Assembly: GCA_026415135.1 (NCBI GenBank)
Contig: JAOAHS010000015.1
Location: forward strand, 1-46,609
Source: Calditerrivibrio sp.
GTDB taxonomy: Bacteria > Chrysiogenota > Deferribacteres > Deferribacterales > Calditerrivibrionaceae
Reading direction: 5' to 3'
DNA: 46,609 nt
The notes beneath the pieces are model-generated. The model was not told the origin of the DNA. It saw nothing but the letters and a program-made list of their open reading frames with translations, and did not search any database. The position numbers and the translations under genes were made by a program. Shown one piece after another: positions 3,718-38,463 of the stretch. Position 1 is the stretch's first letter. Each line of letters starts with the position of its first letter.

Positions 3718-5466
3718 ATGGCTAACATATTTGGCATCCTTCATACAGCTGTATCAGGTCTGTACGTGGCTCAGGCAGGTATAAGTGTAACAGGTCATAA
3801 CATTGCAAACTTGAACACAGAGGGTTTCTCAAGACAGAGAGCTATCATCTCCACAGAAACCCCTTTGAATGTCCATCCAGGGCCATTTGGAAGGGGAGCA
3901 AAACTTGACAAGGTGATGAGAACCTACGACGATGTCCTCGCAAAAACATTGAGAAACGAAACCAGTTCTTTAAGTTATTGGGAAAACCTCCAAACAACGT
4001 TGGATAAGGTGAAAATACATTTCAACGAATTGGAATCCGGATCAGGTCTTGGTGATTATCTAAAGGAGTACTTCAACGCCTGGTCAGACCTCTCAAACAC
4101 CGCCCCTGACAACTCAGATGAATCCTATGTCAAGCGCAGAACACTGATTGAAAAAGCCACAACTCTCACCATGAAAATACGGGAAAGCTATTCGAATCTC
4201 GAAACCATTAGAAAAGAGAATGATGCAAATATAAAAATAAAAATCGACAAGATCAACGATATCTCTAAAAACATAGCATATCTAAATTATCAGATAGCCA
4301 AATCTGAAGCCAGCGGTAATATTGCAAACGATCTTAGGGACAAAAGGGATATTCTTTTAAACGAACTGAGTAAAATAGTAAACTTCGTAGCATCAGAACA
4401 GGACGATGGACAGATATCTGTATTTGTTGGTGGGATATCGATAGTCGATTCCGCTCAAGCGAATGAACTTTTTGCTGTAGAAAATAAAGAAAACAATGAT
4501 CATTACGATATATACTGGGGAGCCAGTGGACTCAATAAACCCCAGGTGAACATCACTGACAAGATCTTAGGGGGGGAACTGTACGGTGAATTAAAAACAA
4601 GAGACGGCTATGTTGGCAAGTATGTAAAACAGATTAATCTATTAGCAGAACAACTTATTACCTCTACAAACAAGCTACATAGCATAGGTCAAGGGCTAAA
4701 ACGTTTCGATCAGATCACATCAAACAACGGAGTAATAAACCCTTCCTACAAATTTTCTGAAAAGGCTGGTGAATTCCAATACCCAATTTCAAAAGGTACT
4801 TTTAGGATAGCGCTTTACAACAATGAGGGGAAAATAGAGACATACTACGATATAGACATAGATCCAGAAAAGGACTCTTTAAATGCCATCATAGCTCGAA
4901 TTTCATCTGCAGATGGTGATCCTAATGGTGGTAAACTCCAGGCTTATCTTGCAGAAAACAACACATTAAAGATTACAGTAGAGTCTGGATACACCTTTAC
5001 CTTTACTGAAGACACTTCAAACTTCTTGGTGGCTGCTGGATTAAACACCTTTTTCAAAGGCCTTTCTGCAAAGGATATCGAAATAAACGGACTTGTTAGT
5101 AACGACACAAGCTTCATAGCCACCTCTCTTACAGGTGAACCTGGTGACAATCGAAATGCCCTTAAAATTGCAAATATTAAATTCGATTCGCTGAGTAGTG
5201 GCGTAACTATAGATGAGTTTTATACCACCTTCGTTTCCATGATAGGAAGTGACAAAAGTCAGGTTGATGTCTTTTACAATACAAAAAAGAATGTGGTCCA
5301 AGAATTGAAGATAAAAATGGATCAGATCCAAGGGGTTTCAATGGATGAAGAGTATACCAACATGATCAAATACCAAAAGGCCTACGAAGCAAACGCAAGA
5401 TTCCTTACCGCTGTGGATCAGATGATAGATAGGTTGATAAACAACACAGGTTTAGCAGGACGATAA
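3718..5466 (+). CDS. flgK: Flagellar hook-associated protein 1, FlgK
   Basis: FlgK forms the first junction layer between hook and filament. The N-terminal rod/hook signature is clear: IFGILHTAVSGLYVAQAGIS, then VTGHNIANLNTEGFSRQR. The C-terminus has the matching helix (QGVSMDEEYTNMIKYQKAYE, then ANARFLTAVDQMIDRLINNTG). The 582-residue length is near the family norm; residues of about 330-500 form the variable exposed domains. AATAGGAG lies upstream of the ATG. flgL follows ten bases after the stop. Confidence 0.97.
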   Translation: MANIFGILHTAVSGLYVAQAGISVTGHNIANLNTEGFSRQRAIISTETPLNVHPGPFGRGAKLDKVMRTYDDVLAKTLRNETSSLSYWENLQTTLDKVKIHFNELESGSGLGDYLKEYFNAWSDLSNTAPDNSDESYVKRRTLIEKATTLTMKIRESYSNLETIRKENDANIKIKIDKINDISKNIAYLNYQIAKSEASGNIANDLRDKRDILLNELSKIVNFVASEQDDGQISVFVGGISIVDSAQANELFAVENKENNDHYDIYWGASGLNKPQVNITDKILGGELYGELKTRDGYVGKYVKQINLLAEQLITSTNKLHSIGQGLKRFDQITSNNGVINPSYKFSEKAGEFQYPISKGTFRIALYNNEGKIETYYDIDIDPEKDSLNAIIARISSADGDPNGGKLQAYLAENNTLKITVESGYTFTFTEDTSNFLVAAGLNTFFKGLSAKDIEINGLVSNDTSFIATSLTGEPGDNRNALKIANIKFDSLSSGVTIDEFYTTFVSMIGSDKSQVDVFYNTKKNVVQELKIKMDQIQGVSMDEEYTNMIKYQKAYEANARFLTAVDQMIDRLINNTGLAGR

Positions 5467-5476
5467 GGGGTAAGCC

Positions 5477-8400
5477 ATGAGAGTGACTTTTAATATGCTG
5501 TCACTTAAGTATCTAAGTAACTTAAGCAGTAGCCTTGAAAAGGTAACCAACGCTAATGAAAAAGTGGTAAAGGGTAGAAACCTCCTTGCCCCTGAATCAG
5601 ATGTAGTCTACTACGCATCATCCCTTAATGTCCAGAGGACAATAGATGAAGGCCAACAGTTCTCAAGAAATGCAGAAAATGCCATTAGTTGGCTGTCAAA
5701 CTATGAAAACGAGTTGCAAAGAGCCTTTGATATAATAAGAAATGCCAAGAACGAATATGCCATTGCCGGTGCAAATGCAAGTCAAAACTCCGTAAGTAGA
5801 AAAGCTTTAGCTGGTGATGTTTCCAATCTATTGCAGCAGTTGGTGGATGTAGGCAATGCAAACTATTTTGGCAGATACTTTTTCTCCGGCTATAAAACAG
5901 ATACAAAAGCCTTTGCCTCCGACAAAAGGGAAGTTAGTGCAGTAAAGATTACTTCCGATGGCGACATACTAAAAAGAAATGTTTTTGCCGATCTTCCAGA
6001 ACTTAAAGAGGGGAACTATAAATTGGAAGTTACCTCTATGGGGAGTGAGTATATAAGCATAGTTTTAAAAGACGCAAAGGGATCACCCCTTATAATTGAC
6101 TCAAACGGCTCAGATGAATCAGGTAAAGGGGGGAACCTAGCAGGTACACAACTTAAAGTGAAATTTAGACCAAACGAAGTCGTAAATTTAGGTGTAGGTA
6201 TCGCTGTAAAACTCCCTACCTCCAATACATCTTTTACAGCTTCCTTCTATTACAAACCTGGTGATGATATAAATTACATGGGGGACAAAGGGCAAATAAC
6301 CACAAAGATCGGCTACCAACAAGATGTTACTATAAACTTCACCGGCCAAGAAGTCTTCACAGAGGTGGAAAGGATCCTTAAAGGGACAAGATACAACACC
6401 ATTAAAGGCCTACAGATAACTGAGACCACAAAGTTTTCCCAATTCGATGGAGCCAACATCTCTTTAGCAGATTACATAGAAGTATCTGGTACTGACCATA
6501 ATGGCCTTAAGGTGGGTACCGCAAAAATACGTGGGATAGATATAGTAAATTTAGATATGACAAATGTCTCATCGAGTGACCGTACTTTCAATTTGGAGTA
6601 TGCGGGAAAAATCAGATCGATTACCCTAGATGCCAGAAGTTATAAGGATATAGATGATGTGATCTTCTCAATAAACAGAGAGATAGAAACATTGGGTTGG
6701 GCAGAGGAGATTGAAGCCAAAGCAGATGGTGACCGTATCCTCATCTCCACCACAAGATCAGGTAATGCTGTAAAACTAAAACTAACTGCAACAGAACAAA
6801 ACCCCTTCGGTTTCCCCACAACTATAGAAGAAACAGGTAGAGATACAACCTTCGAACTATCCTATGACAATTTTGACAACACTTCCCCATTGAGTCTATC
6901 GTTTTCATCTGTTTTTGCCGATGCCCAGGTAGATATATATCTGGACAATAAACTCATATCCATACCCGCATCAGCAGGAAGAACTTTGACAAGCTTGGTA
7001 ACCCAGTTGAATAATCAACTTCAAAACATGAAATTAGATGCTATCTACAATTTCAGGGAAAATGCAGGTAATCTTATTGTTGAAAAAACAAATATCGATT
7101 TCACTAATACAACAGCCCTATCTGTAAGACTCAACGACGGTACCAACAACCTTTACAAGACAGCCACTCCCCGAAAGGTGGGATACCCCTCTGCTAATGA
7201 GAAATCTGTTTCAGATCTATTAAGGTTTATCGAAAATCTTTATGATAACACAGTAGATGCACGCCTTGAAGATGGTAAAATAGTGGTTAGCGACAAAAGA
7301 GGCGGTCCAAGCAAATTCACCCTAAAGCTCATCCCCAGCAATAGCGGAATCGGATACCCTGAAGTGGAACCAAAAGCCATATTGAAAGGTAAATATACAG
7401 GTGGAATGGACGATGAATGGATCGTATCAATGACCTCATCTGGCATATACAGAAATATAACCATAATGGACAAAAACAACAATATCATAAAAGTGATAAA
7501 CAACATCGATACCACCACCTACAATGGAGGTGAGGTCGATCTCGGATATGGTGTTAAAATGGTATTACCAGGTGAAACAACAGGCGTTGTAACACCGGCA
7601 CTGAGCTTCAAGTTACAACTAAAGGCTTCCTCCAGCCTAAGTTTTGGTGACATGAACATCGTTCAGGAAGGAAAAAATGTAAACACCTTTAGGTCATTAA
7701 AAAATCTATATGATGCCCTAAACCTTGACATACCAAAGGAAGGGATAGGCGCCCCATCAGCATGGAGAGATGATAAATTCAAATCCACAATGAAACCATA
7801 CCTTGATGGCACCTTCAGGGGTAATTATAACGATCAGTGGACCTACGAGGTTTTAACCCAAGACAAGAAAACATCGTTTTATCTGCAAAAAGAACTCTCC
7901 ACTTCCTCCATTTCAGAAATAGCAACAGCTGGTAGTGTCAACTTTGATATCCTTCTTAAAGATAAAGATGGCAATATGATCAGGGAAAGCTTCTCCAATG
8001 TCCAACTGGCTAATCTTATAGAGGAAATCAATTCTCCTTTAAGAACAAACCTTTATAAAAACGGTGTAAAGGCTGAATTGGTAAACAACAAGCTCGTGAT
8101 AAGATCTGGTTCGGGCACCCAAGAAGTGGAATTGACCCCTACTGATCAAAACTCAGCTCAGTTATTGGGCTATTCCGTCATGTACAATCATGATAACGAC
8201 CTCAACACTCCAGATATATCCTCAAACTATAGAACCATATTCAGCAAAAATCAGATCTCTTACAATCTATCCAATGCCACCGATGCCCAGAGGACACTCA
8301 GTTTTAATTATTATGATGGAACTAACTGGAACTCAACCTCTATAAAGATAGATAAAAAAGACTATACAGGCTTAGATGATCTTATTGATGAAATCAACAG

Positions 8401-8989
8401 CAAGATAGCTTCCACCCCTTCAATCGCAGGTAGAATAACAGCAGTCAATATAAACAACCAGCTATCATTTCAATTTAACAACACAATAAATAACCTGCTG
8501 ATATCTGGCGATAATGAAGGCACTTTGGGGTTTTTTAAGGCTGGAGATACACTTAAGATAAAAGTATCAAATTCAAAAGGTGAGCTTATTAACACACTCA
8601 CCTTTGACACAGCCAACAAACTAAAGTATGTCGCAGATGGTGTAAAACTCTCCTTCAACACTGGAATAGCCTACGCCACCGACTCCTTCAGCTCCACAGT
8701 TGGTTCTGGTATCAACTACGAAATCGGCATCCTCGATAAAGCAGAAAACCAGATAAATGAGAAGCTCACCATAGCAGGTACACGTTATAATAGAGCAGAA
8801 TCAGTGGTTAACTTTCAGGCGACTCTAAAAACAGTCTCAGAGACTGTAAAAGCAAAATATTTAGGCTCCCGTTCCGAGGATGCTACTGCAGCCATTACTG
8901 AATTTCAATTAGCTCAACAGGCATATCAGGCAGCACTGGCCACTTCCACAAAACTGATGCAACTATCGATATTAGACTATATAAGATAA
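5477..8989 (+). CDS. flgL: Giant FlgL, hook-filament junction protein 3, with a large repeat-bearing insert
   Basis: The two ends are those of FlgL/flagellin proteins: residues 1-140 (MRVTFNMLSLKYLSNLSSSL, later AENAISWLSNYENELQRAFD and NYFGRYFFSGYKTDTKAF) and about 1080-1170 (GTRYNRAESVVNFQATLKTV, later AAITEFQLAQQAYQAALATS). The total of 1170 residues is three to four times the roughly 300 of enteric FlgL. The extra 900 residues contain recurring beta-rich units. One type pairs a strand-rich stretch with a helix ending DDVIFSINREI or DDLIDEINSKI, then a strand such as DRILIST or NNQLSFQF, at about 368-440, 481-540, 572-620, 819-900 and 938-1000. This resembles the exposed 'flagellin hook IN' repeat type. 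A second recurring unit has the form LKGKYTGGMDDEWIV or YLDGTFRGNYNDQWTYEV. The insert should protrude from the junction surface. No frameshift is seen. Confidence 0.93.
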   Translation: MRVTFNMLSLKYLSNLSSSLEKVTNANEKVVKGRNLLAPESDVVYYASSLNVQRTIDEGQQFSRNAENAISWLSNYENELQRAFDIIRNAKNEYAIAGANASQNSVSRKALAGDVSNLLQQLVDVGNANYFGRYFFSGYKTDTKAFASDKREVSAVKITSDGDILKRNVFADLPELKEGNYKLEVTSMGSEYISIVLKDAKGSPLIIDSNGSDESGKGGNLAGTQLKVKFRPNEVVNLGVGIAVKLPTSNTSFTASFYYKPGDDINYMGDKGQITTKIGYQQDVTINFTGQEVFTEVERILKGTRYNTIKGLQITETTKFSQFDGANISLADYIEVSGTDHNGLKVGTAKIRGIDIVNLDMTNVSSSDRTFNLEYAGKIRSITLDARSYKDIDDVIFSINREIETLGWAEEIEAKADGDRILISTTRSGNAVKLKLTATEQNPFGFPTTIEETGRDTTFELSYDNFDNTSPLSLSFSSVFADAQVDIYLDNKLISIPASAGRTLTSLVTQLNNQLQNMKLDAIYNFRENAGNLIVEKTNIDFTNTTALSVRLNDGTNNLYKTATPRKVGYPSANEKSVSDLLRFIENLYDNTVDARLEDGKIVVSDKRGGPSKFTLKLIPSNSGIGYPEVEPKAILKGKYTGGMDDEWIVSMTSSGIYRNITIMDKNNNIIKVINNIDTTTYNGGEVDLGYGVKMVLPGETTGVVTPALSFKLQLKASSSLSFGDMNIVQEGKNVNTFRSLKNLYDALNLDIPKEGIGAPSAWRDDKFKSTMKPYLDGTFRGNYNDQWTYEVLTQDKKTSFYLQKELSTSSISEIATAGSVNFDILLKDKDGNMIRESFSNVQLANLIEEINSPLRTNLYKNGVKAELVNNKLVIRSGSGTQEVELTPTDQNSAQLLGYSVMYNHDNDLNTPDISSNYRTIFSKNQISYNLSNATDAQRTLSFNYYDGTNWNSTSIKIDKKDYTGLDDLIDEINSKIASTPSIAGRITAVNINNQLSFQFNNTINNLLISGDNEGTLGFFKAGDTLKIKVSNSKGELINTLTFDTANKLKYVADGVKLSFNTGIAYATDSFSSTVGSGINYEIGILDKAENQINEKLTIAGTRYNRAESVVNFQATLKTVSETVKAKYLGSRSEDATAAITEFQLAQQAYQAALATSTKLMQLSILDYIR

Positions 8990-36921: not shown

Positions 36922-37268
36922 TGAAACTCCTTTTGTATCTCATCGTTAAACATATCAAGTATATACCTAAGTTTACCAACAAGAGCCTTAGGCTCCATAG
37001 ACACTGCAAAATAGTAGCTTTCATTTATCTTTTTAAAAAAAAGCTTTCGATTGTCACCTTCAAACAAAAAGGAGTGGACGTTGTTTATATCAAGGGTCGA
37101 TGATATCTTCTTGAAATATCTCAACATAGAAGAAAACTCAGCCCCTATCTCATCTGCCATATCCTCCCTGCCCATCTTGTAAACGACAAACCCATCCTTA
37201 TCAAACACTGCCACCATTTTTGTCCCATTTACATGATTTATTATGTGACTGAGGATGTTGCTAAACAT
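36918..37268 (-). CDS. Small roadblock/LC7-like protein
   Basis: The 116-residue protein has the alpha-beta pattern of roadblock/LC7 domains: a first helix, then VNGTKMVAVFDKDGFVVYKM as the paired strands, a second helix (DEIGAEFSSMLRYFKKISST), HSFLFEGDNRKLFFKKINES with YYFAVSME, and a last helix KALVGKLRYILDMF. Roadblock proteins bind or activate small Ras-like GTPases (for example MglB with MglA in polarity control), or act as dimeric scaffolds. No GTPase gene lies in the window. It overlaps the TPR gene by eight bases and aroQ by four, so all three are co-translated. The fold call rests on pattern only. Confidence 0.72.
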   Translation of the reverse strand: MFSNILSHIINHVNGTKMVAVFDKDGFVVYKMGREDMADEIGAEFSSMLRYFKKISSTLDINNVHSFLFEGDNRKLFFKKINESYYFAVSMEPKALVGKLRYILDMFNDEIQKEFQ

Positions 37269-38463
37269 TTCTCATCTCTTTAATCTTCTTTATATTGCCA
37301 AGCCACCGCTCAAGCTCTTGAACTATTCTATTATGCTCATCCTTTGTAGAGTCTATTTTCAACTGCGCCTCTTCTTTTTCAAAACCTGCTGACACTAAAT
37401 CCATTGCCAAACCAGTCTCTTTAATAATGGAGATCTCAACTTCTTTATCTTTATCTTTATCTTTATCTATATCTATATCTATATCTAAATCATACATTTC
37501 AACAGTTTGTGTTGGTTCATCAAGCTTTATATCTTCAAGAACACTCTTCTTTTCAGAACCACTGAGTTCATCAAAATCGATCTCTTTCCCAAACAGATCA
37601 TCAAAGGACACGTCTTTTACCTCATCCATCAGTGGTGTGGCAGGTTCTTCTTTATCTACCCTACTTTCATTGATTACAAAATCAGAAAGGTTGTCAAACT
37701 TTAAAAGATTACTCTCTTCAACAACACCTGAAGTAGGCTCCTGCTTTTGCATAGAATCTTCTAAACCCTGTGACACATTAGCACCATCAAAAACATTAGT
37801 CTCTATTTTCAGATCTTTATCCTCAACTTCCAATAGCTTCTCATTTAAACCACCTTCACCTTCGACAGGTATCTCCACAACATTCACCTTCCCCTCTTCT
37901 ATCACAGAAGTATCCAAATTGAGGTGTTCCAGTTCATCCTTCAAACTAGCCATATCATGGTCAACAGGTGTATGATCAAGATGTGCTACCGCCTCATCTA
38001 TGTTTTTAATCTCATCAGAAGCCCTAAACTCTTTTCCACCAAGACTTTCTGTGAGCTCATCCAGTAATACCCTTAGCTCAAAATCCTCAGGTGTTGTTAC
38101 AAGAGCAGTCCTATAGTAAATCGTAGCACCCAAAATATCACCAGACTCTCTTAGGATATCTCCTAACATCTTATTTGCCCTATAGTTATCAGGGACATGC
38201 TCCACCACATCAAAAAGAAGGTGTTTTGCCTCATCCTTCATCCCTTTTTCAAGAAAAGCATTGGCCAAAAGAACCTTAGCAGCGTAATAATCTGGATGTT
38301 TATCCAGTCCCTTGCTACAGACATCGATCACCTCATCATATTTACCAAGCTTAAGATATGCAAATGCAAGGGGCATAAAAAGTCTTGAAGAAGGATCCTC
38401 TTCTATTTTTTTTGAAAAATACTCCACATCCTTTTGATACCTTTTTATGGAAGCCTCATCCAT
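37261..38463 (-). CDS. Cytoplasmic TPR protein with long acidic tail
   Basis: The 400-residue protein has about four TPR-like helix pairs at residues 1-150 (FMPLAFAYLKLGKYDEVIDV, YAAKVLLANAFLEKGMKDEA, NYRANKMLGDILRESGDILG). A long acidic, low-complexity region follows, with a tandem Asp-Ile and Asp-Lys stretch at about residues 325-341 encoded by hexanucleotide repeats. The protein closes with a helical segment (VQELERWLGNIKKI). There is no signal peptide. Its ATG overlaps the 3' end of aroB by 19 bases, and it overlaps the roadblock gene, suggesting the two proteins work together. Function unknown. Confidence 0.82.
   Translation of the reverse strand: MDEASIKRYQKDVEYFSKKIEEDPSSRLFMPLAFAYLKLGKYDEVIDVCSKGLDKHPDYYAAKVLLANAFLEKGMKDEAKHLLFDVVEHVPDNYRANKMLGDILRESGDILGATIYYRTALVTTPEDFELRVLLDELTESLGGKEFRASDEIKNIDEAVAHLDHTPVDHDMASLKDELEHLNLDTSVIEEGKVNVVEIPVEGEGGLNEKLLEVEDKDLKIETNVFDGANVSQGLEDSMQKQEPTSGVVEESNLLKFDNLSDFVINESRVDKEEPATPLMDEVKDVSFDDLFGKEIDFDELSGSEKKSVLEDIKLDEPTQTVEMYDLDIDIDIDKDKDKDKEVEISIIKETGLAMDLVSAGFEKEEAQLKIDSTKDEHNRIVQELERWLGNIKKIKEMRNV
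37442..37489. repeat. Hexanucleotide tandem repeat inside the TPR gene
   Basis: Eight six-base units read on the plus strand as four TCTTTA, three TCTATA and one TCTAAA. On the coding minus strand they give alternating Asp-Leu/Ile and Asp-Lys. Because the unit is a multiple of three, gain or loss of copies would alter length without breaking the frame. Confidence 0.9.

Follow-up and report, generated by a model that had tools for sequence, protein, structure and literature searches.

Why should a gene lying between flgK and fliW encode a protein of 1170 residues, and what are the sequences in its middle for? The window analysed here is a stretch of 46,609 nucleotides from Calditerrivibrio sp., in which positions 5477-8989 of the plus strand form one intact open reading frame that starts 10 bases downstream of the end of flgK. 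Reading frames upstream of flgK and flgL, judged by eye, we take to be flgH, flgI, flgJ, flgM and flgN. The gene order is flgK-flgL-fliW:

3718..5466, plus strand: flgK, 582 residues, of ordinary size
5477..8989, plus strand: flgL, giant hook-filament junction protein, 1170 residues, matching Flagellin_N and TIGR02550
9005..9469, plus strand: fliW, by a domain search match

The product scores 136.3 bits against TIGR02550, the FlgL equivalog model, above the curated cut-off of 127.2, and its residues 5-141 match Flagellin_N. For a finer view, ordinary FlgLs of 290-411 residues, that of E. coli and eight encoded on plasmids of Proteobacteria, Bacillota and Thermomicrobium, were built into a profile, which was aligned to the giant family. 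The alignment places FlgL core pieces at residues 1-149, 254-296, 731-753 and 1079-1170, leaving three inserts between them:

5477..5923, plus strand: N-terminal D0/D1 core, residues 1-149; P99.8 to the ordinary-FlgL profile, Flagellin_N
5924..6235, plus strand: insert 1, residues 150-253, a beta domain by profile alignment and by strands in the model
6236..6364, plus strand: D1 beta-hairpin and helix alpha-3a, residues 254-296; P90 / P63, TIGR02550 positions 141-196
6365..7666, plus strand: insert 2, residues 297-730, holding units A, B and C and a second beta domain (profile, model)
7667..7735, plus strand: D1 helix alpha-3b, residues 731-753, NVNTFRSLKNLYDALN; top-scoring segment against the ordinary-FlgL alpha-3b profile
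7736..8710, plus strand: insert 3, residues 754-1078, holding units D and E and beta elements (profile, model)
8711..8986, plus strand: C-terminal D1/D0 helices, residues 1079-1170; P96.6 to ordinary FlgLs, TIGR02550 positions 297-387

Both terminal D0/D1 helical blocks of FlgL are thus present, at P99.8 and P96.6, together with the internal D1 hairpin, alpha-3a and alpha-3b. The hairpin and alpha-3a piece reaches P90 when taken as a 101-residue segment and P63 within a longer one; alpha-3b, a short motif, has the highest score of all scanning windows (22, the next independent one reaching 11). Mean pairwise identity is 0.47 in segment 251-345 and 0.50 in segment 718-810, much as at the protein ends (0.46 and 0.45), partly because both segments contain core. 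We have very little doubt about the joint assignment of the protein as FlgL (HAP3) and of this architecture. The initial annotation had described intact flagellin/FlgL termini enclosing a single insert of some 900 residues. The termini stand, with Flagellin_N at one end and the C-terminal block at the other, and so does the very long extra sequence, which D1 pieces part into inserts of about 104, 434 and 325 residues (about 863 in total).

How were the inserts built? TRF found no DNA tandem repeats in flgL. (Elsewhere in the window, seven and a half copies of the hexamer TCTTTA at 37442-37486 lie within a TPR-like minus-strand reading frame, 37261-38463, where they encode an acidic/lysine repeat, the six-base units preserving the frame.) An all-versus-all search of the insert by plain BLASTP likewise returned no repeats, and comparison of the family profile with itself gave one strong pair, residues 346-448 with 919-1022 (P98, E 1e-13; score 96 against a null mean of 14.9, SD 3.0, maximum 31.6). 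The null comprised 132 comparisons in which columns had been shuffled or reversed, and the real scan a different, partly overlapping set, so that only this pair is beyond doubt. Weaker matches, mutually in register, have scores of 26-32 that lie near the null maximum or under it: 485-554 with 371-440, 577-621 with 843-889, and 966-1011 with 844-888. AlphaFold2 predicts the secondary structure beta-beta-alpha-beta-beta-beta at 370-438, 485-553, (820)844-888 and 940-1011, and alpha-beta-beta-beta, a shortened fifth copy, at 578-617. The units can be listed as follows:

6512..6820, plus strand: unit A, residues 346-448, beta-beta-alpha-beta-beta-beta; strong repeat of unit E, sub-model pLDDT about 90
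6884..7141, plus strand: unit B, residues 470-555, secondary structure as A; weak match to A (score 32, P62), sub-model pLDDT about 90
7184..7342, plus strand: unit C, residues 570-622, alpha-beta-beta-beta; i-Evalue 2.5e-4 to residues 266-321 of the FlgL in 9gsx
7388..7639, plus strand: second-type beta domain with a KYTGG motif, residues 638-721; resembles residues 181-265
7919..8146, plus strand: unit D, residues 815-890, weak copy (scores 26-29; model)
8231..8542, plus strand: unit E, residues 919-1022, strong copy of A; weak Flagellin_IN match, pLDDT up to 92

Recurring units ending in DDVIFSINREI or DDLIDEINSK helices had been proposed for this protein; one such pair is firm, and the three further units are weak matches. 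A second proposed repeat type, LKGKYTGG/LDGTFRGN, was not borne out in that form: no profile match joins KYTGG to TFRGN, and residues 648-721 instead resemble 181-265 (score 38, P76, above the null maximum). The Flagellin_IN motif (PF07196) matches unit E weakly, at residues 940-976 (15.4 bits, below the curated cut-off of 22.7), as it does some orthologues, the best of the six listed singly reaching 22.1 bits. Longer orthologues carry an extra weak-to-moderate unit copy directly before the C-terminal unit, and a group of four proteins of 1400-1404 residues (L067, L070, L074 and L075, group g6/g7) has additional unit matches at about 901-978. An HMM of the repeat unit found no match, with E up to 1, in the other reading frames of the fetched loci, including two flagellins.

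Structure prediction, from an alignment of eight sequences, bore out the repeated beta-beta-alpha-beta-beta-beta units and yielded a poor full-length AlphaFold2 model (pLDDT 54.6, pTM 0.30), whose top fold matches as a whole are the FlgLs of X. campestris and C. jejuni. Could the inserts form a surface-active collar, an adhesin or ligand-binding device for which FlgL is merely the carrier? Solved FlgL rings lead one to expect the inserts on the outside, and tandem beta-rich units are common in adhesins and in phage tail proteins, for which there are weak Foldseek matches. Those matches of the sub-model, antibody-like and phage-tail-like, have TM-scores near 0.2-0.3 with large rmsd, and we discounted them as evidence for function. 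Neither Pfam nor fold comparison revealed a lectin, adhesin or protease domain in the inserts, family searches found no metalloprotease or other enzyme domain of the flagellinolysin type, and a profile of residues 345-632, made from the eight sequences, had no match in the PDB. Further points against such a collar are that about eleven FlgL copies are expected per flagellum and that the trait is constant over lineages of apparently quite different habitats. The adhesive role suggested initially finds nothing in these searches to lean on, and we regard a surface-active collar as quite unlikely.

Selection bears on another early suggestion, that of an immune or phage shield, here taken with the corollary that such pressure would make the inserts diversify. 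The inserts, chiefly units B, D and E, do change faster than most of the core, by a factor of roughly two to four, and differ in length among orthologues, as such shielding would have it. Their median dN/dS is nevertheless 0.12-0.25 (core 0.03-0.16) and at most 0.51 for any unit and pair, values that are rough with dS near 0.9. Purifying selection acts throughout, and diversifying selection was not seen, no insert pair exceeding about 0.5. PADLOC gave no match and PHROGs none of note. We consider shielding very improbable.

Is the protein peculiar to this genome? The initial annotation had treated it as a singular copy, and every readable orthologue in the phylum is likewise giant: the 42 complete ones (41 and the window copy), from 18 genera, all have 1138-1532 residues. 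This similar size throughout marks a lineage trait, the outcome that the annotation itself had named as counting against its reading. Eighteen of 20 genera have a giant complete FlgL, and the other two have truncated copies, of at least 1137 residues in G029 and at least 791 in G050, the latter cut by the contig end while still inside the insert. An apparent FlgL of 3226 residues in G009 (L056, G009:C3:1-7500) is an artefact of a 7500-base masked run of N that cuts the gene. The insert architecture is collinear across the phylum, with conserved insert positions. The deepest branch (G001-G003) has FlgLs of 1509-1526 residues; those of the genus of the window and of the neighbours closest to it, at 1138-1170, are the shortest. 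We infer that the ancestor of the phylum already had a large FlgL, and we place the window copy at the lower end of the size range. Two near-complete genomes of genus g4, G014 and G016, gave no match to FlgL, FlgK, FliD or flagellin and have probably lost their flagella recently; their congener G015 has all four. The contig scan used patterns from close relatives, and for that reason the loci it returned are all of Deferribacterota type; comparisons outside the phylum covered E. coli, plasmid records, the PDB and named family models. No plasmid-borne giant FlgL was found, nor any prior description of a giant FlgL in the open-access literature searched. In sum, the giant FlgL looks like a lineage-wide structural trait rather than a special adhesin or immune shield.

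Does the size of FlgL follow that of its partners? FlgK is nearly constant across the phylum, mostly 581-589 residues. FliD frames mostly span 869-1020 residues, with 1336-1349 in family f9 and 511-513 in family f8, and intact-looking flagellin frames mostly 756-1034. The sole FliD of the Calditerrivibrio genome (G000:C24:25091-25927, minus strand) lies outside the window and has an 870-residue open frame. Two flagellins of 781 and 800 residues (L081:5275-7620 and L082:3162-5564) have large outer inserts without a match to the FlgL repeat unit. In G029, a 1.6-Mb incomplete genome of family f6, there are 14 Flagellin_N matches, several of them in one cluster on contig 21 whose frames span 797-1034 residues. 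Raw sizes correlate significantly, FlgL with FliD at rho 0.70 over genomes, and FlgL with FliD and flagellin at rho 0.57 and 0.66 over genera. After independent contrasts, FlgL length shows no co-variation with FliD or flagellin length (r 0.07-0.13, p 0.07-0.55), and we rejected a coupling of these sizes. G050, moreover, has a FliD of 511 residues and a flagellin frame of 619 beside its large FlgL, so a giant FlgL needs no giant partners. Since the predicted tracking of sizes failed under phylogenetic correction, we have lowered that part of the structural claim. The missing coupling and the pairing in G050 would suit neutral growth, in which duplicated IN-like units built up in D1 loops because insertions there are tolerated, the units having only to fold and be exported, and so would the extra unit copies that several lineages carry before the C-terminal unit. 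Large size has nonetheless been retained in every flagellated genus with a readable FlgL, the inserts are under purifying selection and their positions are conserved. Neutral growth thus seems to us an unlikely account.

The explanation that we prefer overall, at a probability of roughly 0.6, is that the protein forms a structural ring at the junction, its outer layer enlarged, and is a relative of the C. jejuni FlgL with its bulky D2. In S. enterica and C. jejuni, a FlgL ring of eleven subunits lies between FlgK and the filament, and in the cap-junction complex of C. jejuni the bulky D2 of FlgL adjoins D4 of FliD (PMC12221982). Work on the S. enterica junction is cited, in a passage of a later paper, as proposing that the junction guards the filament from hook-derived stress (PMC12880188). 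The likeness to C. jejuni FlgL, the D2/D4 contact and this proposal of stress protection favour a structural role. The protein keeps the D0/D1 ends of an ordinary FlgL, along with pieces from inside its D1, and three inserts, composed largely of anciently duplicated, Flagellin_IN-like beta-beta-alpha-beta-beta-beta units and of beta domains, sit at D1 loops. By analogy with the solved rings, we put forward the following model. About eleven copies would make the layer between FlgK and the filament, the inserts facing outward as an enlarged D2-like layer; large outer domains on the junction, part of the initial annotation, are expected from homology to those rings. This layer may act as a structural spacer and mechanical buffer, carrying on the outer surface of a filament whose flagellins are large (about 780-800 residues in this genome), and may seat the large FliD cap at the start of filament growth, much as the C. 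jejuni contact would suggest. A mechanical role would fit, and we judge the chance that the inserts serve as spacer, buffer or cap seat to be slightly better than even. It is rather unlikely that the junction of the Deferribacterota (including a Chrysiogenes-like class, whose name is inferred) is a distinct giant collar, ancestral to the phylum and set apart from ordinary FlgL rings by a function of its own, whether as a mechanical buffer or as a special platform for cap docking; a ring of eleven such proteins, each of 1138-1532 residues, would have a mass of roughly 1.3-1.8 MDa. Either way, the junction protein, and not flagellin alone, can grow about threefold and stay so across a phylum while FlgK remains ordinary, and the role of outer domains at the flagellar junction becomes testable.

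How does this FlgL compare with known systems? The closest is C. jejuni FlgL (PDB 9GSX, 750 residues), which likewise joins a FlgL core to an enlarged outer region and is about 420 residues shorter. Its residues 266-321 match unit C, and the C-terminal blocks also match; units A, B, D and E have no significant sequence match to it in the PDB profile search. X. campestris FlgL (PDB 5ZIZ) and ordinary FlgLs of about 300-410 residues share the D1 hairpin, alpha-3a, alpha-3b and alpha-4 with the protein described here. In X. campestris, a beta-sandwich D2 is inserted between alpha-3a and alpha-3b (PMC6155364), the site of insert 2. Whereas ordinary FlgLs have one small D2 or none, three sites here hold about 863 residues. 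Giant flagellins of more than 1000 residues, known from Deferribacteres and Chrysiogenetes among others, have a large outer insert enclosed by D0/D1 ends that are conserved, and the survey that described them filtered FlgL out (PMC6248924). Proteins of more than 1000 residues with a flagellin N-terminus in these phyla should be named with caution, as they are often FlgL. Giant flagellins are proteins of the filament and the enlarged protein here is the FlgL of the junction, but the principle is alike.
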